A stretch of DNA of 64,000 bases from Nitrospira sp. (GTDB lineage Bacteria; Nitrospirota; Nitrospiria; Nitrospirales; Nitrospiraceae), in contig VGXF01000002.1 of assembly GCA_016873435.1 (NCBI GenBank), forward strand, positions 124,001 through 188,000. Reading direction: 5' to 3'. Of the stretch, positions 8,802-20,917 are shown in pieces; position 1 is the stretch's first letter; each line of letters opens with the position of its first letter. The notes beneath the pieces were generated by a model. That model had not been told where the DNA came from. It saw only the letters and a program-made list of their open reading frames with translations, and searched no databases. Position numbers and translations under genes: made by a program.

Positions 8802-10049
8802 TCAGGGGTTATCCATGGCGGTCCGGCTCTCGAACTTGACGCACTGCCGATTCAGGACCGGATAGATCGTGAAGATCGGGGTATTGAACGGGATGAACGC
8901 GGTGTCCGTCGCCGGCAGGAGCTGCAGGTGTAGGTTCACGTAATTGTAGCTGAGCCCCTCCTGCCAGGGCTTGCTGAAGTTCTCCACGTAGGCCTGCGTT
9001 TTGTCCGAGGCGTAGGTCCTGGTCATCAGGCCCGCGCCGCCCTGCAGCCCGTACTCATTCAAGTCCGGCGCCCCCTGGATCAGGACCGACACCGCAGCGG
9101 CATCAAACCAGACCTTAAACTTGCAGCTGACTTGCAGGTAGGTGCCCAGGGAGCCCGTATGCTCTAGGAAGCCCAGGGGCAGAGCGATCTCGGGCGGCGG
9201 GTCGTCCGGTCCCGCGGCCAGCGGGAGCCGGAGCTCCCGTTCTTTCACAGGTGAAAAAGAGATGAATCGTAAGTGGGGATCGTCCAGTGCGATGTCCTGG
9301 GCCGTCCCGTCGTGGTAGCTGCACAGCTTCCCCATCTCGTACCGGAGGGGAAAGGAGTAGCCCGGTTTTGCGTAGAAGATGCGCACGCCTGCGTCCAGTG
9401 GATCGTCCGGCTTCCGGCTGATCTTGAGATCAAAGGGCAGCATCATGTGAAAGGCGTTCGTGCGCGCGGCCATGAACGGTGCGCAGGCGCCCTCGAACTC
9501 CTTGTGCAAGGTCGAATTGTCTGGCTCGAAGTTTTTCGGGATCGCGCCGAAGTGCTGCGCCAGCTTGGCCTCCTTGGGGATCCTGAACTTGTTCTGGTAG
9601 TACTCGCCGGCCCGCCGTTGCGCGATGCTGAGAAAGTAGTCGGGGAGGTCTGTTTCCACGATGATCCGCTGCTTGTCCAGCGCGACCGTTCGCGGCACCT
9701 TGATGGCCTCGTTGTACAAAACCAGCTCCGCCGAGGTCTTCCGGATGTCCTGCGCTAGGAGTTGGGCGATCTCCGGATGCGTGAGGAGGGGGGGGGTGTT
9801 GGACAGTAGTGTTTGCGCCTTCTGCAGGCACTCGAGTTTCTGTGTGTAGCGCTTTGGCTCTGCCGCGAAGGCGCCTGCGATGGCCATGTAGAGGTTGAAC
9901 TGCTCCTCCGGCAGCAGGCCCAGCTTGTCCAGGTCCTCTTCCTTGCTGAAGGCAAGGGCCAGCGGGCCGAAGGCCTCTTCCTTCCGGATACAAAGGGTGA
10001 GGAGGTAGTTGTAGTGGGTTCGGGCTTCCTGCGGTGTCATCCGGCGCAT
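8802..10049 (-). CDS. Unrecognised 415-residue protein
   Basis: A long frame with normal codon use and no family I recognise. The first 130 residues are helical with repeated hairpin-like segments ([17 protein letters not shown], then [15 protein letters not shown]), possibly TPR-like. Residues from about 200 to the end look beta-rich ([15 protein letters not shown], then [14 protein letters not shown]), with several conserved-looking aromatic residues. No signal peptide or transmembrane segment. It is the first gene of the minus-strand run toward ltaE and stands divergent to the proA-like gene, sharing the 10050-10239 promoter region. Function unknown. Confidence 0.75.
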
Positions 10050-11720: not shown

Positions 11721-12920
11721 TTGCCCGCCACGAAGGTCAATCCCGCCATTCACAGTCATTTGAAAGAGTGGGGCTTGCGCTGGTTTGAGACCGACGCGGA
11801 TTACGACCGCTGGCAGCGCGAGACGCTGAAACAGGACGAACTCACGACACTACTTCGTCTCTCTGGGCAGCGGGGCGGCGGCGCCGATCCTGCCGCTGAG
11901 ACCGCGTTCTACGATTACGCTTCGCAACCGCACATCCTGCCGGTTCTCTACAGTCAGCGCTACGACTATTATGCGACCATCGGCACCGCCGTAGCCGAAC
12001 GGATTGGGGAGGCCCGCTCCGCACTGGATGCTGCCTGTGGGATCGGCGTACTAACGGCGTGGTATGCCCGGCAGTTCCCCAATTGTGTGTTCACCGGCGT
12101 AGATCGGTCGCCGGTTTCCATTGCAGTTGCGATGGAAAAAACGAAAGCGCTCGGTCTCTCCAATATTCGGTTCGAATGTCTGGATATGGACCAGATGATA
12201 CCGCCCGGACCTTTTGATCTGGTAATTTCCACGCAGGCGCTTTTGCAGAACGAGCAGGACCCCGGTGTGCCGAGCGCAAGCTGGCGGATCTTCGAGCGGT
12301 CCACGGATGCAGGGGTACAAGCCGACATCGAGCGGCGCACCGGCCTCGGCAATCGGTTGGACCGTCTCGCGGCGGCGCTCGCGGAGGGCGGCCGCCTGAT
12401 CGCCTGCGAGAAAACGCGGCATCTGGCCCGGCGTGTGCCATTTCAGCGGGCGCTGGCCGCGAGAGGGTTCATGATGCAGGAGACGCCACTGTCGATTCAG
12501 TACGCGGTGATCGAAGAAGTCACGGACGACGGTCCGCTTTATGTGCTGGGCCGTGGTGCATCGACTGTCGCTTGGGACGAGTCACCGGAGTTCGACGACC
12601 AGCCGCCATTTGATCCGGCTGCACTCAAAGGCCAGACGGCGCGGGATGATGAGCCGCTCTATGAAAATCACACGGCCTCAGCACAGCAGGCCTGGGAACG
12701 TTTGTCGAATCGCCGTATCCTCAAGGAGCAGACAGGCGCGCAGGCTGGGGGGCGGCAGATGCACGTGGAATTAGGTGAGTCGAATGACCTGAACTATCTC
12801 TATTGTGCCAATACCTTCGATCAGCGCCAACTCGTCATTGTGGACCGTTCGCGGCAGCCCATGCTCGCGCAGTATTACGATGAAGTCGTACAGAGTATGG
12901 ACGCCGCTCCGCACACTTGA
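11721..12920 (+). CDS. SAM-dependent methyltransferase with a C-terminal extension
   Basis: 399 residues from a TTG start. Residues about 95-180 form a class I (Rossmann) methyltransferase core: ALDAACGIGVLTAWYA is motif I, VFTGVDRS carries the acidic residue of motif II, and GPFDLVISTQALL is motif IV. From about residue 275 onward there is an extra region with an acidic linker and a compact end (LNYLYCANTFDQRQLVIVD) not expected of a plain methyltransferase. Substrate unknown. It stands first in the 11.7-20.9 kb locus of radical SAM and redox genes, but a separate promoter precedes the radical SAM pair. Confidence 0.78.
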   Translation: MPATKVNPAIHSHLKEWGLRWFETDADYDRWQRETLKQDELTTLLRLSGQRGGGADPAAETAFYDYASQPHILPVLYSQRYDYYATIGTAVAERIGEARSALDAACGIGVLTAWYARQFPNCVFTGVDRSPVSIAVAMEKTKALGLSNIRFECLDMDQMIPPGPFDLVISTQALLQNEQDPGVPSASWRIFERSTDAGVQADIERRTGLGNRLDRLAAALAEGGRLIACEKTRHLARRVPFQRALAARGFMMQETPLSIQYAVIEEVTDDGPLYVLGRGASTVAWDESPEFDDQPPFDPAALKGQTARDDEPLYENHTASAQQAWERLSNRRILKEQTGAQAGGRQMHVELGESNDLNYLYCANTFDQRQLVIVDRSRQPMLAQYYDEVVQSMDAAPHT

Positions 12921-13102
12921 TCTTGTGGCGGCGCAAGATTTGTTCCCTCTGTCTTTGCAACCAGAATTACGAGCGGAGGACGTTTTCGCGGTCGCCGATC
13001 AAATCGAACCGAATGCTGGCAACAAAGTGGAGCAGGGGATCGAGGCCTCGCCAAAGTAAGTAATTCCCTTGTTCTAACGGGCAGTTGTAAATTCCGCCGT
13101 GC

Positions 13103-13132
13103 TTGACCTATCTCTCGCGCAGGCCCTACAAT
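13103..13132 (+). promoter_or_regulatory. Sigma-70-type promoter for the radical SAM pair
   Basis: TTGACC and TACAAT with an 18-base spacer, about 40 bases upstream of the ATG at 13171. Confidence 0.6.
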
Positions 13133-13170
13133 GAAAATAGTTTTTAAAAAGGTTTAGGCCGGGGTCACTC

Positions 13171-15069
13171 ATGCGCATCGAGTATTCTAAAGGCGAAAAA
13201 GCCAGTCTCGAGCTGATTCAGCTTCATCGTAAAACATCGGACGCCCAGAGTGGGCGAAAGATGAAGGTCCTGCTGATCTTCCCGCCCGACTGGTATCCCT
13301 CCGAGCCCTATCTGAGTCTGCCATCCCTCACTGCGGTCCTGCGCCAGGCTGGCCACACAGTCGTGCAAAAAGACATCAATCTGGAGATGTGGGACTGGTA
13401 CTTCAGCGAGGATTTTCTGAAGCGGGTCCTCAAGAAAGTCCCACAGCAATTGGACCGCCTACGCAAGCTGGCGAAGAAGCGCGATCTGGAGCCGGCCGAG
13501 GCGGAGTTGCAGCTGGCGCTCTGCGAAATCACCCGCCAGCGGATCGATGAACTGGCGAAGAAGGCCGAGGAAGCTAAGCGCATCGTCCGGGGGCAGGAGT
13601 TTTACGACATCGACCGGCTCGAGTGGGCGATGCATGTATTCCGTGAGGTCACGTCGGTGATCTCGATGGTCTACGCGCCCGCGCGCATTTGCCTGCCGCC
13701 GATGGAGACGAACCTGTCGTACAAGGTCTATGTCTCCGCCGAGATTATGGAGGCGGTGCAGGACGAACAGGTCAATATCTACCGCGACGTATTCAACCAT
13801 CTCGTGAGGCCGGTGATCGAAGCGGAGAAGCCGGACGTCATTGGCATCTCGGTCGTCCTTCAGCAGCAACTCTTTTCCACAATGACTTTCTGTGCCCTCA
13901 TCAAGGAACAGTTTCCACACATTCATGTCACGATTGGAGGCAATACGGTCACGCGCCTGCGCGACGCACTGCCCCAGTCGCCGCTGTTCCAGTATTTCGA
14001 CAGCGCTGTGGTCTATGAAGGGGAAACGGCTTTTGTGCAACTGGTGTCGGCTGTAGGGGCCAGGCGCAGCCTCGCCGAGGTTCCCAATGCTATTTATAAG
14101 GACACGTTCGGCGTGCATGAATCCGCCATGAGCTACGCGGAGGACATGCACGCGCTGCCACCGCCGGATTTCGACGGCCTGCCGCTGGAGAAGTATTTCG
14201 TGCCGGTCCGGACGCTCCCGTATCTCGCCACGCGCGGCTGCTACTGGGGCCGCTGCGAGTTCTGCGACCACGGCGAGGGTTACACGGCGGGCTACCGGTC
14301 GAAGAAGATTCAGGACGTGCTAAGCGAAATCAAGCACCTGCGTGACAAGTACGGGTGCCGTCATTTTCACTTCACCGATGAGTCCTATCCGCCGGCACTG
14401 TTTCGCAAGCTGGGGCGCGGCTTAGTTGAAAGCAAGATGAACATCTACTGGACGACGCACATGCGCTTTGAGAAGAGTCTGCTGGAGGATCAGGTCTGGC
14501 AGGATGCGAAGGAGTCAGGCTGCCGCTATCTCCACTTTGGCTACGAGTCGGGCGTCGAGCGGGTGCTTCACCTAATGGACAAGGCGACGACGACCGAGGT
14601 GATGACAAAGCACCTTAAGTACACGGCTGACGCGGGTATCTGGAACCACTGCATGGGCTTCTTCGGATTTCCCGGCGAGACGAAGGAAGAGGCGTGGCAG
14701 TCAGTACAATTCCTTGAGCAGAACAAGAACCATGTGCATTCACTGGGGTTCGGCACCTTCGATCTGGGCCGGCACAATCCAGTGGCGAAGCATCCGGAGA
14801 AATGGGGTGTGACGGCTTACAAGAATCCGCAGTGGGATCTTGCGCTTGATTATTACTACACAGTCAGGAACGGTATGAGCATCGAAGAAGCTGAGCGCGT
14901 GTTCGAACAATTCGAGCAGAATCATCATGCTGGCTGGGACTTGCGACTGTATATTCGGGAGTACATTTTTCTCTACATCTGCAAGTTTGGACTCGCCAAA
15001 CTCCCGGATCTGCAATACAACGCGACGAAAATTGCAGGACCTACGCCGACGCTTGCAGGGAAGATGTAA
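13171..15069 (+). CDS. Cobalamin-binding-type radical SAM protein, copy 1
   Basis: 632 residues. An N-terminal B12-binding-like Rossmann region starts KVLLIFPPDW near residue 31, with PYLSLPSLTAVLRQAGH; the DxHxxG cobalamin motif is not kept (the equivalent stretch reads DINLEM). A helical insertion of about 130 residues follows, then VIGISVVLQQQL and VTIGGN from the second half of the B12 fold. The radical SAM cluster motif is CX4CX2C (Cys357, Cys362, Cys365, in ATRGCYWGRCEFCDHG). HFTDESYPP and FFGFPGETKEEA are further radical SAM core features. Substrate unknown. The gene ends 11 bases before its paralogue. A start at 13261 is possible. Confidence 0.85.
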   Translation: MRIEYSKGEKASLELIQLHRKTSDAQSGRKMKVLLIFPPDWYPSEPYLSLPSLTAVLRQAGHTVVQKDINLEMWDWYFSEDFLKRVLKKVPQQLDRLRKLAKKRDLEPAEAELQLALCEITRQRIDELAKKAEEAKRIVRGQEFYDIDRLEWAMHVFREVTSVISMVYAPARICLPPMETNLSYKVYVSAEIMEAVQDEQVNIYRDVFNHLVRPVIEAEKPDVIGISVVLQQQLFSTMTFCALIKEQFPHIHVTIGGNTVTRLRDALPQSPLFQYFDSAVVYEGETAFVQLVSAVGARRSLAEVPNAIYKDTFGVHESAMSYAEDMHALPPPDFDGLPLEKYFVPVRTLPYLATRGCYWGRCEFCDHGEGYTAGYRSKKIQDVLSEIKHLRDKYGCRHFHFTDESYPPALFRKLGRGLVESKMNIYWTTHMRFEKSLLEDQVWQDAKESGCRYLHFGYESGVERVLHLMDKATTTEVMTKHLKYTADAGIWNHCMGFFGFPGETKEEAWQSVQFLEQNKNHVHSLGFGTFDLGRHNPVAKHPEKWGVTAYKNPQWDLALDYYYTVRNGMSIEEAERVFEQFEQNHHAGWDLRLYIREYIFLYICKFGLAKLPDLQYNATKIAGPTPTLAGKM

Positions 15070-15080
15070 CAACCGGCGCG

Positions 15081-17024
15081 ATGAGTCCCTTGCTTACCAT
15101 AGACAGCCGTCCGCAGCCGGCCACGCCAGGTAGGAAGAAATCCAAGGTCATGTTGCTGTTTCCGCCTGAATGGGTCCCGACGGCTCCGTACCTCGCGCTG
15201 CCGAGCCTCACGGCCGTCTTGCGCCAGCACGAGCACGAGGTCGTGCAGCGGGACATCAACATCGAAATGTACGATCTGTTCTTCAGCGATTCGTTTTTGA
15301 TTTGGGTCAAGACACGCATTGCCGGACATCGCCATGCGCTAGAACTCAAAGAGCGCACCGGCCCACTGAGCGAGCAGGAGCTAGGGCATAAGACCTGCCT
15401 CGAGGCCAAAGCCGACGTGGACGTGTTCGACCTGATCGAGCGCGCCGACAAGGCCAAGCGCATCACGCGTGGCGAAGCGTTCTATGATGCGGCGCAGCTC
15501 GACTGGGCGCTGAACGTTTTTCGCGAAGCCATGCAATACATCTCTGCCGCTTATTATCCGGCGTCGCTCGTGTTCTATCCGATGGAAAGCAACCTCGGCT
15601 ACCGACCGGGTGTCTCGACAGAGATCTTTGCCTGCCTTGACGATGAGCAGGTGAATGTCTACCGCGATGTCTGCCGTCAGCTCGTGCTGCCATCGGTCAG
15701 CCGCGAGAAGCCGGCTGTGGTCGGCGTCTCCATTGGCACGCAGATGCAACTCATGGCCGGCCTGACTTTCTGTAAAATGATCAAGGAAGCTTTCCCGGAG
15801 ATCCATGTCGTGGTCGGCGGCAACGTCATCACGCGGCTCCAGGAAGAACTGCCTAAACACGAACGGTTTTTTACCACGATCTTCGACTCGGCCATCATGT
15901 ACGAAGGGGAGCATGCGCTGCTGTGGTTGCTGGAGGCCCTAAATGGCGAGCGAGAGCGATCCTCCGTGCCCAATTTGATCTATCGCGATACGTCTGGAAT
16001 CCACGTCAACAAGGAAATCCACACGGAGAAGATGGCCACGCTCCCGTTGCCGGATTTCGAGGGGTTTCCGCTCGACAGCTATTTCGTGCCGGTCCGCATT
16101 CTGCCGTATCTGGCCACGCGCGGCTGCTACTGGGGCCGCTGCACCTTCTGTGACCATGGGCAGGGCTATTTTGACCAATATCGCGGTCTGCAATCGGCCC
16201 AGGTGGTGGATCAGGTTAAGGCGCTGCGGGACAAGTACAACTGCCGACATTTTCTGTTTGCTGACGAATCTTATCCCCCCGCGCTCTTCAAGAAAGTCAC
16301 GCAGGCGCTTGTGGATCAGAACGTTGGCATCAAGTGGACGACGCTGATCCGTTTTGAAGAAGCGCTCGAGACGCAGGATCTGGAGCTGGCCGCTAAGGCC
16401 GGGTGCTGTACGCTCTACTATGGCATGGAGTCCGCCAACGAACGCGTGTTGGAGCTGATGGACAAACACGTAAAGCAGTCTATCATCGCACGCAATTTAC
16501 GCGATGCGGCGAAAGTCGGCATCTGGAATCACGTCATGGCCTTTTATGGATTCCCCGGGGAAACGCGGGATGAGGCGGAGGACACGCGGCGGTTTCTGCT
16601 CGAGCACAAGAAAGATATTCACTCGGTCGAGCTGTTCTATTTCGTGGCCTATCGCCATACGCCAATGGTACGGAACCCGGACAAATTTGGCATCACAATC
16701 CACAAGCAGGAGGAGTACGACCTGCCGCTGGATTACTACTATACGCTCAACGAGCCGGTCGGCATTTCCTGCCTTGATGCCATGCAGCTCTGCGAGGACT
16801 TCTACAAGAACGACTTCGAGCCTTGGGCCGTGCGGGTCAATGCCCGCGAGCATGTTTTTCTCTACATTTCCAAGTTCGGTACGAATGCTCTACCGCAGAT
16901 CTATGCCAAGACGAAGGATGGCGATGCGGTGTCGGGGCTCGTCACGTGGCCGGTGGCGCGCGGGGATGCGGAAACCGAGGGCGATCAGTCGGTAGCCCGC
17001 GTCGTCAGTCACTCGCAAACATAA
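15081..17024 (+). CDS. Cobalamin-binding-type radical SAM protein, copy 2
   Basis: 647 residues, clearly paralogous to the preceding protein along its whole length: KVMLLFPPEW, PSLTAVLRQHEHEVVQ, VVVGGNVITRLQEELP, then the 4Fe-4S motif (Cys349, Cys354, Cys357) in ATRGCYWGRCTFCDHG, FADESYPPALF and FYGFPGETRDEA. It also lacks the His of the cobalamin DxHxxG motif (DINIEM). The C-terminal 30 residues differ from copy 1 and look disordered. The pair may act on the same substrate in sequence or as a heterodimer; that is inference from tandem placement. Confidence 0.85.
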   Translation: MSPLLTIDSRPQPATPGRKKSKVMLLFPPEWVPTAPYLALPSLTAVLRQHEHEVVQRDINIEMYDLFFSDSFLIWVKTRIAGHRHALELKERTGPLSEQELGHKTCLEAKADVDVFDLIERADKAKRITRGEAFYDAAQLDWALNVFREAMQYISAAYYPASLVFYPMESNLGYRPGVSTEIFACLDDEQVNVYRDVCRQLVLPSVSREKPAVVGVSIGTQMQLMAGLTFCKMIKEAFPEIHVVVGGNVITRLQEELPKHERFFTTIFDSAIMYEGEHALLWLLEALNGERERSSVPNLIYRDTSGIHVNKEIHTEKMATLPLPDFEGFPLDSYFVPVRILPYLATRGCYWGRCTFCDHGQGYFDQYRGLQSAQVVDQVKALRDKYNCRHFLFADESYPPALFKKVTQALVDQNVGIKWTTLIRFEEALETQDLELAAKAGCCTLYYGMESANERVLELMDKHVKQSIIARNLRDAAKVGIWNHVMAFYGFPGETRDEAEDTRRFLLEHKKDIHSVELFYFVAYRHTPMVRNPDKFGITIHKQEEYDLPLDYYYTLNEPVGISCLDAMQLCEDFYKNDFEPWAVRVNAREHVFLYISKFGTNALPQIYAKTKDGDAVSGLVTWPVARGDAETEGDQSVARVVSHSQT

Positions 17025-17101
17025 AGTGGTCCCCGTGAAGCGATCGCACTCACAAACGCGCGCCCTGCACGCCTCACAAACGACGTGACACGACGAATCT
17101 G

Positions 17102-17359
17102 CTAGTGCTTCTGTGACGTCAGCCAAGCGCAGAGCACTTGATATGCCGACTCGATTGCCCGTGTCATCGCTTCACCCTTCGTATAGCTCTGCATGTATTG
17201 TTTTGGGTTGTTCGTGAGATTGGCATAGCGGTCTGGATGCCAAGTGTCGAGCAGCGCCGTCTTTCTGAGATCGAGTTCTGCGCGGGTCACCGAGCGGTCA
17301 CTTCCAAAGAGCTGCAAGGCTGTGTCGACCGCCTCATCTGTGATAGGCTGACCGGGCAT
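17102..17359 (-). CDS. J-domain-like miniprotein
   Basis: 85 residues if started at the ATG at 17359; longer starts (17425, 17455) would overlap the divergent radical SAM gene. It reads LRKTALLDTWHPDRYA, then a charged loop, then AIESAYQVLCAWL, which is the helix II - HPD - helix III pattern of a J-domain, the part of DnaJ that stimulates DnaK ATPase activity. No Gly/Phe, zinc-finger or substrate domain is attached. It lies antisense to its neighbours, between copy 2 and the third radical SAM gene. No good ribosome binding site is visible. A J-like fold is likely; a chaperone role is inference. Confidence 0.6.
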   Translation of the reverse strand: MPGQPITDEAVDTALQLFGSDRSVTRAELDLRKTALLDTWHPDRYANLTNNPKQYMQSYTKGEAMTRAIESAYQVLCAWLTSQKH

Positions 17360-17405
17360 AAGGCAGTCTGGCAAAAAGCCATTTGGACTGTCAATTGAGG
17401 GTCTC

Positions 17406-18644
17406 GTGAGCTCGACGCTTCCCATTCTCCAACCTGGAAAAGTGCTGGCCGGCAAGGATTACAAGGAGGTTCTGCGCCGTGAAATGGACGGCGGCAAGAT
17501 TCCCTTGAGTCTCGGCAAGAACTGTCCGGTCCAGTGCGCTTTCTGCTATGAACTCGATCACTCCTACCGGGAAACGCTCGATCCGCCCAAGACGACTGAC
17601 GAAGATTGGAAGTTTATCCTCGACTATATTAACAGCAAGCCCACTGACCCGATGCAGTACTGGTGTCTGGGTGGCAACGAGTACATGGAATGGACCGATC
17701 TCTTTCTCCATCCTAAGGCCATGGAGTGGGTGGAGGACTTTCTGAAGCATACAGACAAGAACATCCAGTTTTTCACAGTGGGTTTCGTGCACGTGCCAAA
17801 AATACACCAGCTTGTGGCGCAGTATCCGGGCCGAATCAACTTTGAGCTGTCGGTCATCACGCTGGGGCGCTACCGGGAAAAGCTGATGCCGCATGCGCCG
17901 TCGGTGAAACATCTGATGAAGGTGCTGGATGGCCCAGCTGTTTCCTCGGCCAATTTCTACGCTTTTGACGAGCATACGATGTCGGACGATGCGAGGGCCA
18001 TCTCGCGGGTGAATCACAAATGTGTGCTCTGGATGGGCTGCCTGACACCGGTGCGGGGTATTAAGGGCGATACTCTGGCGATTATGCGGCAGGGGCGCAC
18101 GTATCTCGCCACTGAGGCGCAGCGCATCTATGACGCCGGGCTCCCCAACTTTCAGACCATTCACACGGAAGCCTACGTGACAGCCTTCCTGAACCGCCGC
18201 CGCATTGTGAGCCTGTTCGACTCGCTGGAATTACAGAAGAAGGATGTCGTCGTCATGGCGGCGAGCGTCTTTAAGATTCTGAACATGTACAGGAAGAACC
18301 GGGCCAAATACCTCTTCGTTCCGAACACGATGCTCTCCGGCGATTCCGATTGTACCGTGCTGCTGACCTTCGACGACATTGCCCGGCGGCTGACGGGCGA
18401 GAAGGTCATTCACGTACCCAAGTGCATCATGCAGTCCGGCCGCGGGCATTATATGGACATCACCGGCGTTACGCTGGAGGATTTTATGAAGAGGACCCGT
18501 GTAACTGTAAAGGTCCTGCACAAGGTGAATACGGACTTTGCCAACCGACAGCTGTGGCGCAATGGCTCGCTGAAGCAGTATGTCGAAGATTACGTCAAAA
18601 ACCCCTTAACCCAATCTTATGAAGCTCTTCCCGTCCCAGCTTAA
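17406..18644 (+). CDS. Radical SAM protein, unrelated to the tandem pair
   Basis: 412 residues from a GTG start. The 4Fe-4S motif is a standard CX3CX2C (Cys40, Cys44, Cys47, in GKNCPVQCAFCYELD). Later features: YWCLGGNEYMEW (probably equivalent to the GGE step in the core), a strand-rich centre, and a C-terminal region with MLSGDSDCTVLLTFDDIA that is not part of the usual core and resembles accessory domains of unknown role. No B12 domain and no obvious SPASM Cys cluster. It is divergent from the J-domain-like gene by 46 bases. Substrate unknown; a peptide-like frame with three Cys follows it. Confidence 0.8.
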   Translation: MSSTLPILQPGKVLAGKDYKEVLRREMDGGKIPLSLGKNCPVQCAFCYELDHSYRETLDPPKTTDEDWKFILDYINSKPTDPMQYWCLGGNEYMEWTDLFLHPKAMEWVEDFLKHTDKNIQFFTVGFVHVPKIHQLVAQYPGRINFELSVITLGRYREKLMPHAPSVKHLMKVLDGPAVSSANFYAFDEHTMSDDARAISRVNHKCVLWMGCLTPVRGIKGDTLAIMRQGRTYLATEAQRIYDAGLPNFQTIHTEAYVTAFLNRRRIVSLFDSLELQKKDVVVMAASVFKILNMYRKNRAKYLFVPNTMLSGDSDCTVLLTFDDIARRLTGEKVIHVPKCIMQSGRGHYMDITGVTLEDFMKRTRVTVKVLHKVNTDFANRQLWRNGSLKQYVEDYVKNPLTQSYEALPVPA

Positions 18645-18686
18645 TCACTTGTGCGTTCGTTGACAGGGAATGGCTGCTGACCTACA

Positions 18687-18818
18687 GTGTACTCCACGCC
18701 TCGAGTTGGGAAGTTTAGGAAAGTCGTCCAGCAAGGCTCCAGCGCGCGCAAGAGCAGGGAGGTGCGTGCCGAGCTGCGCTTCTGCCACGTGCAGTGCTAC
18801 CTATGCGAGCGGCAGTAG
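18687..18818 (+). CDS. Possible 43-codon peptide gene with a CX3CX2C tail
   Basis: A GTG-started frame between the third radical SAM gene and the phzF-like gene. The first 31 residues are basic and Cys-free (including GKFRKVVQQGSSARKS); the end reads LRFCHVQCYLCERQ and stops, so three Cys in CX3CX2C spacing sit in the last 11 residues. No good ribosome binding site is seen (an AGGGAA lies about 17 bases upstream). It could be a modified-peptide precursor, a small metal-binding protein, the torn start of a lost radical SAM gene, or chance. Confidence 0.25.
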   Translation: MYSTPRVGKFRKVVQQGSSARKSREVRAELRFCHVQCYLCERQ

Positions 18819-18905
18819 TCTTTTGCCGTCAGTGAAGTAATCCGGTAGGAATTTGAACGAGTCAGTCCGCAGCCGGAGCGTTGTTCATCATCCGCGGAGT
18901 AACAG

Positions 18906-19838
18906 GTGTCTCCAGCCAGGCGCACGTTAAAATTCTACCAGGCGGACGTCTTCACGGATGAGCCGTTCGGCGGTAATCCAGTGGCTGTCCTGCCGGATGC
19001 ATCGGGCCTGACGGACGAGGAGTTGCAGAAGATTGCCCGGGAGATGAATCTTTCAGAAACGGTCTTTGTTCTACCCCCAAGCAATCCGAAAGCCGCCGCT
19101 AAGGTTCGCATCTTCACCCCGACGCAGGAAATTCCCTTTGCCGGCCATCCCATCCTCGGCACATTTTTCATCCTGGCCAGACTCAAGATGATCAGGCTGC
19201 AGGAGCCGATCGCGACGTTCCAGTACGAGTGTAACATTGGCGTATTTCCAATCGAACTACGCGTACACAAGGGGCAGATTCTTCGTGTCGTGATGACCCA
19301 GCCCAAGCCGGAGTTTCTGGAGACGATCGAAGCGGTGGATGCTTTGGCCGAAATCGCCGTGGCGCTCGGCTTGGAGAAGAAGGTGATTACCGGGACGAAA
19401 TTCCCGGTCGCGGTCGTGTCCACTGGTCTGCCGGTCATGATCGTGCCGGTACGGACATTGACAGCGGTTCGATCCATCGTGCCCAATCTCACGGTGATGA
19501 CCGAGCTCTGTGGGCGGCACGGGGCCAACGGCATCATGGTCTTCACAACAGTCACGGTCGACGAGTTTTCGACCGTCCACACACGTATGTTTGCGCCGCT
19601 GATCGGCATTCTGGAAGATCCGGCCACGGGGAGTGCAAGTGGCGCACTCGGCGCCTATCTGGTCCAGAACGGTGTCGTTGAGGTAGCGATCACGACGGAG
19701 ATCATCGCTGAGCAGGGCTACGAGATGGGCCGGCCGTCCCGCATCATTATCCAGGTTGAATCCGACGACGACGTGATTCAGGATGTGAAAGTGGGCGGGG
19801 AAGTGGTCCTGGTCATTGAGGGCACGATCACTTTATAG
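18906..19838 (+). CDS. PhzF family protein (isomerase/epimerase fold)
   Basis: 310 residues from a GTG start. Typical PhzF signatures: YQADVFTDEPFGGNPVAVLP at the start, MNLSETVFVLPP with the catalytic-type Glu, FAGHPILGTFF, and EDPATGSASGALGAYL in the second half. PhzF proteins are two-domain proteins of the diaminopimelate-epimerase fold; the named member isomerises a phenazine precursor, but most homologues have unknown substrates. There are no other phenazine genes here. Genes before and after leave the substrate open; an MDR oxidoreductase follows 47 bases later. Confidence 0.88.
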   Translation: MSPARRTLKFYQADVFTDEPFGGNPVAVLPDASGLTDEELQKIAREMNLSETVFVLPPSNPKAAAKVRIFTPTQEIPFAGHPILGTFFILARLKMIRLQEPIATFQYECNIGVFPIELRVHKGQILRVVMTQPKPEFLETIEAVDALAEIAVALGLEKKVITGTKFPVAVVSTGLPVMIVPVRTLTAVRSIVPNLTVMTELCGRHGANGIMVFTTVTVDEFSTVHTRMFAPLIGILEDPATGSASGALGAYLVQNGVVEVAITTEIIAEQGYEMGRPSRIIIQVESDDDVIQDVKVGGEVVLVIEGTITL

Positions 19839-19849
19839 CGATGCCCACA

Positions 19850-19877
19850 GAACGATGAATGATGAACTAGGGATCGA
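19850..19877 (+). repeat. Heptamer tandem repeat between phzF-like and oxidoreductase genes
   Basis: Units GAACGAT, GAATGAT, GAACTAG, GGATCGA. The first two match exactly the units next to lgt (minus strand, 2281-2294). Confidence 0.65.
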
Positions 19878-19885
19878 GGTCTAAG

Positions 19886-20917
19886 ATGAAAGCGGTCGTC
19901 TTTCATGAGCACGGCGGGCCGGAAAAGCTGCAGTACGAAGATCGGCCGCAACCGCAGATCAAGCCGGACGAGGTCTTAATTCGCGTGAAGGCTTGCGCTG
20001 TGAACCATCTGGACCTCTGGGTGCGTCAGGGCATTCCCTCCTATCAGATCGCGTTGCCGCATATCTCTGGTTCGGACGTGGCCGGGCAGATTGAACAGAT
20101 CGGTGGCGAGGTGAAAGAATTTAAGATCGGACAGAAGGTCTTCGTCTCGCCCGGATTAAGCTGTGGCGCTTGTGAGCAGTGCAAGGCGGGTCGTGACAAT
20201 CTCTGTGCGGCATTCAGCGTGCTGGGCGCCAGAACCGACGGCGGCTATGCCGAGTTTGTCGCAGTGCCGGGCCGGAACGTGCTGCCGATTCCCGGTGCGC
20301 TGACCTTCGAACAGGCCGCAGCCTTTCCGCTTGTGTCCGTGACAGCCTGGCACATGATCGTGACGCTGGCCCGATTGCGCAAGGAAGAGACGGCGCTGAT
20401 CATGGGCGCAGGTAGCGGCGTGGGGAGCATGGCTATCCAGATTGCTAAGCACACCGGTGCCAAAGTCATCACGACCGTCGGCTCGGAGGAGAAGATCAAG
20501 AAAGCGCTCGCACTCGGTGCGGATGAAGTCATTAATCATGGAGTGGAAGATATTACCCAGCGCGTCCTGGAACTGACCGGCGGTTATGGTGTGGGCGTGG
20601 TGATCGAGCACATTGGGCCCGATGTCTGGGGGCAGTGCCTGAAATCGCTGGCCAGGGGCGGGCGGCTGATCACCTGCGGTGCTACAACTGGCGGCGAAGC
20701 TAGGGTTGATCTGCGCGCTCTCTTCTCGCGCAGCTTGACGCTGAAGGGCTCTTATCTGGGCACAAAGGCTGAACTGGTCGAAGCCGCCAAGCTGGTCGGC
20801 GACGGTAAACTCAAGCCGGTCATTGATCAGGTTTACCCGTTGAAGGATGCGCGGGCGGCGCAGGAACAGATGCTAAGCCGGAAGTTCTTCGGGAAGATCG
20901 TGCTCTCGGTTGGCTAG
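19886..20917 (+). CDS. Zinc-type MDR oxidoreductase (alcohol dehydrogenase / quinone reductase family)
   Basis: 343 residues. GroES-like N-terminal domain and Rossmann domain (MGAGSGVGSMAIQIAK binds NAD(P)H). The structural-zinc loop is intact: four Cys in SCGACEQCKAGRDNLC. The catalytic-zinc Cys of true alcohol dehydrogenases is absent; the site reads ACAVNHLDLWVRQG, the subgroup that includes many NADPH-dependent reductases. Substrate unknown. It starts 47 bases after the phzF-like gene and probably shares its transcript, so the two may act on a common metabolite. Confidence 0.87.
   Translation: MKAVVFHEHGGPEKLQYEDRPQPQIKPDEVLIRVKACAVNHLDLWVRQGIPSYQIALPHISGSDVAGQIEQIGGEVKEFKIGQKVFVSPGLSCGACEQCKAGRDNLCAAFSVLGARTDGGYAEFVAVPGRNVLPIPGALTFEQAAAFPLVSVTAWHMIVTLARLRKEETALIMGAGSGVGSMAIQIAKHTGAKVITTVGSEEKIKKALALGADEVINHGVEDITQRVLELTGGYGVGVVIEHIGPDVWGQCLKSLARGGRLITCGATTGGEARVDLRALFSRSLTLKGSYLGTKAELVEAAKLVGDGKLKPVIDQVYPLKDARAAQEQMLSRKFFGKIVLSVG

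Follow-up and report, generated by a model that had tools for sequence, protein, structure and literature searches.

A tandem pair of predicted cobalamin-dependent radical SAM enzymes conserved across the Nitrospirales, with a divergent DUF512-type protein nearby

In the families of cobalamin (Cbl)-dependent radical S-adenosylmethionine (SAM) enzymes considered here, one SAM methylates the cobalamin and a second SAM yields the radical that activates the substrate carbon. The closest described systems fall into two classes. One class 1 enzyme (MgmA) and one class 2 enzyme (Mmp10) modify methyl-coenzyme M reductase in archaea (PMC11796369; PMC8828468). In 2024, crystallography and assays established that DUF512 binds cobalamin and is similar to the corresponding domain of Mmp10; proteins with this domain bind Cbl and form methyl-Cbl (PMC11659888; reviewed in PMC13331322). 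Here we analyse an unusual radical SAM locus in a 64,000-nucleotide stretch of Nitrospira DNA, referred to below as the window (G000:C2:124001-188000; G, C, L and f numbers are our handles for genomes, contigs, loci and families). The genome is small (1.72 Mb, 33 contigs, 98.5% complete) and belongs to the family Nitrospiraceae of the order Nitrospirales, and the best close matches to the window are RIFCSPLOWO2_02_FULL_62_14 and Baikal-deep-G158. The conserved unit of the locus is a tandem gene pair, rSAM1 and rSAM2, which in the window is followed by a third radical SAM gene, rSAM3.

The products of rSAM1 and rSAM2 are 46-50% identical across almost their full length, and their genes lie 11 bases apart on one strand. 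The initial annotation of the window, which described a paralogous pair of 630-650 residues, was accurate in this and in its coordinates. Pfam places both Radical_SAM (E 7e-15) and B12-binding (4e-10) domains in rSAM1; rSAM2 matches Radical_SAM, and its B12-binding score of 31.7 falls just under the cut-off of 32.1. Both carry a three-cysteine cluster motif, spaced CX4CX2C unlike the CX3CX2C spacing; this oddity, already noticed in the initial annotation, is real and invariant in 26 sequences. As CX4CX2C is found in paralogues too, the motif marks a subfamily. The histidine motif DxHxxG is not present in either protein, as had also been remarked, and its lack is usual for class 1 Cbl radical SAM enzymes.

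When compared to the NCBIfam models, both proteins scored below every cut-off, including the curated ones of the TIGR03975, TIGR04479, MgmA and HpnJ equivalogs. The best relatives were PhpK (TIGR04479) and the C-methyltransferases of ribosomally synthesised and post-translationally modified peptides (RiPPs; TIGR03975), yet these reached only 116-143 bits, the cut-offs being 600 and 282, respectively. A TIGR03975 member encoded in the same genome, rSAM5, has a CX7CX2C motif, unlike the pair. The AlphaFold model of rSAM2 (predicted local distance difference test, pLDDT, 76.6; predicted template modelling score 0.81) gave TsrM (E 1e-13), OxsB, MgmA, AprD4, CysS and TokK as best Foldseek matches. 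The overall architecture is common to the solved class 1 enzymes TsrM, OxsB, TokK and CysS, at 13-18% identity. MgmA (PDB 9CCB), the glutamine C-methyltransferase of methyl-coenzyme M reductase, is among the best matches of rSAM2 by sequence as well as by fold, and shares the N-terminal Cbl Rossmann domain and the radical SAM barrel (about 20% identity over 333 columns; 51-54 bits against a cut-off of 360). The pair differs from it in the CX4CX2C spacing and in a long helical insert, which in the rSAM2 model comprises about 140 residues and separates strands 2 and 3 of the Cbl domain. From these comparisons, rSAM1 and rSAM2 are predicted to be class 1 Cbl-dependent radical SAM enzymes with an N-terminal B12-binding Rossmann domain. 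Weak matches to HpnJ, HpnR and rSAM_ladder_B12 would fit a role in lipid or hopanoid tailoring, with the pair methylating or cyclising a membrane lipid in the manner of HpnR, HpnJ and the ladderane B12/radical SAM family; however, the scores lie far under the cut-offs (75 vs 578 bits for HpnJ) and the conserved block shows no lipid gene, making such a role very improbable.

Among 148 genomes sampled from the phylum, the rSAM1/rSAM2 pair was found only in Nitrospirales, with just distant relatives elsewhere. Within the order (189 genomes), rSAM2 was present in 165 and rSAM3 in 109. The locus proteins are 60-90% identical across three families, which rules out chance open reading frames, and the spread through the order is as for a housekeeping trait. 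In this the locus differs from TsrM, OxsB, TokK and CysS, which act on small molecules in antibiotic clusters. A fourth family (f4; four genomes of one lineage) lacks both nitrite oxidoreductase (NXR) and all of these radical SAM paralogues. In the tree of the two copies, which the initial annotation had proposed, all rSAM1 and all rSAM2 sequences formed sister clades (support 100/99 and 100/100; 100/100 for their junction), which dates the tandem duplication to before the origin of the order. The rSAM1 of the window grouped with Nitrospira copies (85% identity); its rSAM2 grouped with the Baikal relative (84%). This points to single-gene exchange at the locus. Contigs L064 and L095, labelled Omnitrophota and Nitrospinota, bear a Nitrospirales-like locus, and misbinning seems likely. 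Outside the order, three tandem B12/radical SAM genes were seen at L262 593-6129 (G169:C116), with an apparent outer-membrane efflux protein, a membrane-fusion protein and a peptidase-type ABC exporter on their 3' side; judged from the sequence starts only, this arrangement resembles peptide natural-product clusters.

The product of rSAM3 on its own matched no Pfam or NCBIfam model. When 20 orthologues were scanned at a permissive threshold (E up to 10), DUF512 was found in 16 (best 5e-5) and Radical_SAM in 14 (best 0.003), with one genome (G038, 25.3 vs 25 bits) above the Pfam DUF512 cut-off and the others below it. An hhalign comparison of the rSAM3 profile with a canonical DUF512 profile, built from 20 proteins of other Nitrospirota, gave a probability of 97 and an E-value of 7.7e-11 (for a single comparison) over 289 columns, with the CX3CX2C cysteines in register; control comparisons (rSAM2 with DUF512, rSAM3 with rSAM2) gave about 1% or less. 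The predicted order of domains, a CX3CX2C radical SAM domain followed by a DUF512-like C-terminal domain, is that of the class 2 proteins csDUF512, pfDUF512 and Mmp10. With just 39 residues N-terminal to its first cysteine, rSAM3 has no PDZ domain, as is also the case for Mmp10 and for pfDUF512 (PMC11659888); from the PDZ-type DUF512 proteins it further differs by a GGNE in place of their DDD motif. In the orthologue alignment, GGNE and a leucine stretch, VLLTFDDI, are invariant or nearly so. The former may be the counterpart of the GGD motif of Mmp10, and the latter aligns with the DUF512 segment VTVTGLLTGxDI, a candidate lower-axial leucine region. A search of the rSAM3 sequence against solved structures found nothing. 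Since the model of rSAM3 is poor (pLDDT 64) and its fold search gave no match under E 0.001, it is from the profile comparison alone that rSAM3 is predicted to be a class 2 (Mmp10-like) Cbl-dependent enzyme with a C-terminal DUF512 B12 domain. The initial annotation was thus right about the CX3CX2C motif, but in calling the third enzyme unrelated it missed a second type of cobalamin enzyme. Because DUF512 binds cobalamin, rSAM1, rSAM2 and rSAM3 are all predicted to be Cbl-dependent, in two structural classes, and we consider it very probable that they are Cbl-dependent radical SAM enzymes.

The presence of rSAM3 follows that of ammonia monooxygenase (AMO) inversely. AMO was detected in 49 of the 189 genomes, and rSAM3 was found in none of these 49 AMO-positive genomes, compared to 109 of the other 140 (Fisher 2e-24). 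Calling AMO-positive Nitrospirales genomes comammox is established usage. In the loci lacking rSAM3 that were inspected, rSAM2 is followed directly by a J-like gene (where found) and then by a gene for a PhzF-family isomerase. The gene trees of rSAM2 and PhzF require four or five changes in rSAM3 and disagree with each other, and an independent-pairs sign test of AMO against rSAM3 gave p of 0.5 or more from few informative pairs. With so few independent changes, the pattern stays a correlation and was rejected as proof of function.

Conservation of the neighbours was scored over 80 named loci, each neighbour only where the contig extends far enough (Table 1). The conserved block starts at rSAM1 and extends downstream. 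Besides the J-like and PhzF genes, opposite-strand genes for MoaB, a ferredoxin and GGCT are kept beside the pair (50/53 each); less constant are rSAM3 (32/60) and ProA (4/44), together with the zinc-type medium-chain dehydrogenase/reductase (MDR) and methyltransferase genes. The minimal unit is rSAM1-rSAM2 plus the J-like gene. The initial annotation had identified the methyltransferase, PhzF and MDR proteins in agreement with Pfam and NCBIfam, and had suspected that only parts of the stretch belong together, as the uneven retention bears out. Of the conserved block it envisaged, the pair, the J-like gene and PhzF hold; the methyltransferase, MDR and rSAM3 do not, and since the pair occurs without these three, a single natural-product pathway made of all seven genes was rejected. 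Its "J-domain miniprotein" is only J-like: the best member of the family matches DnaJ at E = 8e-4, under the Pfam cut-off, and the HPD motif is not conserved, being usually HPH, NPx or TPx. A longer frame of this gene, with a TTG start, extends to 17455.

Table 1. Features of the radical SAM locus in the window, and the paralogue rSAM4 at L257 in the same genome and at other loci.
Feature	Position	Strand	Remarks
Class I SAM methyltransferase	11721..12920	+	Pfam; kept in 4/44 loci; lineage-specific, probably not part of the locus
rSAM1, 632 residues	13171..15069	+	B12-binding Rossmann domain, radical SAM domain with CX4CX2C, C-terminal domain
rSAM2, 647 residues	15081..17024	+	Tandem paralogue of rSAM1, same architecture
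CX4CX2C of rSAM2 (C349, C354, C357: CYWGRCTFC)	16125..16151	+	Invariant in 26 sequences
J-like protein, 85 residues	17102..17359	-	ATG at 17359; between rSAM2 and rSAM3; 71/74 loci
rSAM3, PDZ-less DUF512-type radical SAM protein (predicted)	17406..18644	+	Orthologue scan, hhalign
CX3CX2C of rSAM3 (C40, C44, C47: CPVQCAFC)	17523..17546	+	Invariant in 20 sequences
PhzF-family isomerase	18906..19838	+	TIGR00654, 278 bits; 58/60 loci; kept in f1 and f3
Zinc-type MDR dehydrogenase	19886..20917	+	Pfam; 31/53 loci; variable, probably not part of the locus
rSAM4	L257 9370-11271 (G000:C7:104492-106147); also L258, L259, L295-L314		Inside NarJ/NxrC run

The tandem same-strand arrangement of the pair and the near-constant PhzF gene could be read as a pathway for a small molecule or cofactor, in which rSAM1 and then rSAM2 would act on a metabolite. 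PhzF would be a partner, joined in some lineages by rSAM3, MDR and the methyltransferase, and the product would be a cofactor or signal specific to the order. Metabolites are indeed the substrates of many Cbl radical SAM enzymes, and PhpK and the RiPP C-methyltransferases are among the best NCBIfam relatives. However, the equal retention of MoaB, ferredoxin and GGCT means that the retention of PhzF may be plain synteny, and in family f2 the contig bearing the pair lacks PhzF; a functional link of PhzF to the pair is a candidate only. Neither a scaffold enzyme nor a peptide precursor was found between the genes of the locus, where the only conserved small open reading frame was a fragment antisense to MoaB, and in this the pair differs from the TIGR03975 RiPP enzymes. 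We regard such a pathway as unlikely. The same retention data bear on a possible, if doubtful, alternative in which only rSAM1-rSAM2 is a functional unit, everything else, rSAM3, PhzF and MDR included, being unrelated and held in place by slow rearrangement. It would agree with family f2, where rSAM3 and the pair are on separate contigs, and with the loss of rSAM3 while the pair remains. Most of the Nitrospirota sampled outside the order have canonical DUF512 proteins. No Nitrospirales do; there rSAM3 alone matches weakly, and in this alternative it would fill their role. Set against it, rSAM3 lies within about 1 kb of rSAM2 in most of the f1 and f3 loci that have it.

A 415-residue protein without a Pfam match (window 8802-10049, minus strand) adjoins the pair also in family f2 (L065, L068), with homologues in several other loci. 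Promoters and terminators showed no excess over shuffled sequences, and a search for a cobalamin riboswitch in the window found none; two are present elsewhere in the genome.

The nearest paralogue of the pair, rSAM4 (about 36% identical to rSAM1), is encoded in a run comprising u343, a 4Fe-4S ferredoxin, a NarJ-type chaperone, an NxrC-like haem protein (Pfam EB_dh), rSAM4, u401, TatA, an NHL protein and a second NxrC-like protein. The run, whose genes all point in the same direction, encloses rSAM4 in 23/23 loci examined from f1, f2 and f3, some of them cut at contig ends. We found no paper on rSAM4 in the NarJ-NxrC run; among papers that combine nitrite oxidoreductase with radical SAM, none was relevant judging by title and abstract. 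The distance from the pair to nxrA and nxrB is 4.4 kb in one f2 genome, G043 (NxrA vs PDB 7B04: 1605 bits), where genes for 539- and 618-residue proteins lie between; the f2-like contig L064 has the same 539-residue neighbour at 76% and part of the 618-residue gene. The genome of the window also encodes a genuine TIGR03975 RiPP-type C-methyltransferase (L266 9407-11275, G000:C4; 595 bits, cut-off 282), flanked directly by nxrB on one side and by two small conserved genes on the other. At that position no TIGR03975 gene is present in the other nxr loci checked, though in L289 a 58% relative is located about 4 kb away from nxrB.

Sequence comparison supports the family, the motifs, the rSAM2 fold and the distribution, and from these we infer cobalamin use, methylation and a target as follows. 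As expected from their families, rSAM1, rSAM2 and rSAM3 would each bind a [4Fe-4S] cluster, SAM and cobalamin. A 5'-deoxyadenosyl radical would be formed, and a methyl group from methylcobalamin would be transferred onto an unreactive carbon, or related radical chemistry would take place. The likeliest substrate would be a respiratory protein that serves nitrite oxidation, not a secondary metabolite, with C-methylation the probable outcome; the pair would form the core, and rSAM3 would be an accessory enzyme, lost wherever AMO is detected. We put the probability of this reading, three Cbl radical SAM enzymes with a nitrite-oxidising respiratory protein as most likely target, at roughly 0.35. 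What favours such a target is the fixed place of rSAM4 in an NXR accessory run that also encodes a molybdoenzyme chaperone and a twin-arginine translocation (Tat) component, together with the joint modification of methyl-coenzyme M reductase by MgmA and Mmp10; the argument is one of analogy and neighbourhood, not a demonstration. The nearness of the pair to nxrAB in G043 also counts for it, as does the joint absence of NXR and these paralogues from f4, although that is a single lineage.

Several observations weigh against this reading. Around nxrAB in f1 and f3, stretches of 12-20 kb were inspected, and the pair was not seen beside these genes. In G235-G238, G216 and other AMO-positive genomes rSAM4 is kept and the pair is missing, so the activity of rSAM4 does not everywhere call for the pair. 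A few pair-bearing genomes have no NXR match (e.g. the single-contig G135, G005 and G018), perhaps because repeated NXR copies break the assembly. The pair and NXR share one clade, which makes their co-occurrence weak evidence, and we rejected it as independent support. More distant NXR-like genes (39-42%) are found in other parts of the phylum, where the pair is missing. To these is added the reliance of the rSAM3 class on profile comparison. The more specific version, in which NXR or its haem subunit NxrC would be C-methylated by rSAM4, and by rSAM1/2 with rSAM3, like methyl-coenzyme M reductase, is quite unlikely. For the wider reading, a respiratory protein and perhaps NXR as target, our confidence is modest, since several comammox genomes keep rSAM4 without the pair.

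Nitrospira marina requires B12, and its nitrite oxidation stops without it; the B12 users named by the authors are ribonucleotide reductase, MetH and methylmalonyl-CoA mutase (PMC8115632). Its need could be explained by other B12 enzymes, which weakens the support that it lends to a respiratory target. In the genome of the window there are seven B12-binding matches. Five are radical SAM proteins (rSAM1, rSAM2, rSAM4, rSAM5 and a 717-residue protein) and one has the size of MetH; rSAM3 comes in addition. Four loci (including L048) have, no more than 20 kb from the pair, a gene for a protein of about 1226 residues resembling B12-dependent MetH.

Nitrospira are main nitrite oxidisers and include the complete ammonia oxidisers. 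The conservation of predicted B12 radical enzymes, one of them encoded within the NxrC/NarJ run, suggests a modification of the central machinery of these bacteria, for which our literature search found nobody to have looked. If true, there would be an added reason for the B12 need of Nitrospira marina, and the DUF512 enzymes would gain a natural setting with few candidate substrates. In rSAM3 there would also be a genetic difference between canonical and comammox Nitrospira, and if NXR is indeed the target, the loss of rSAM3 would separate the comammox from the canonical members.

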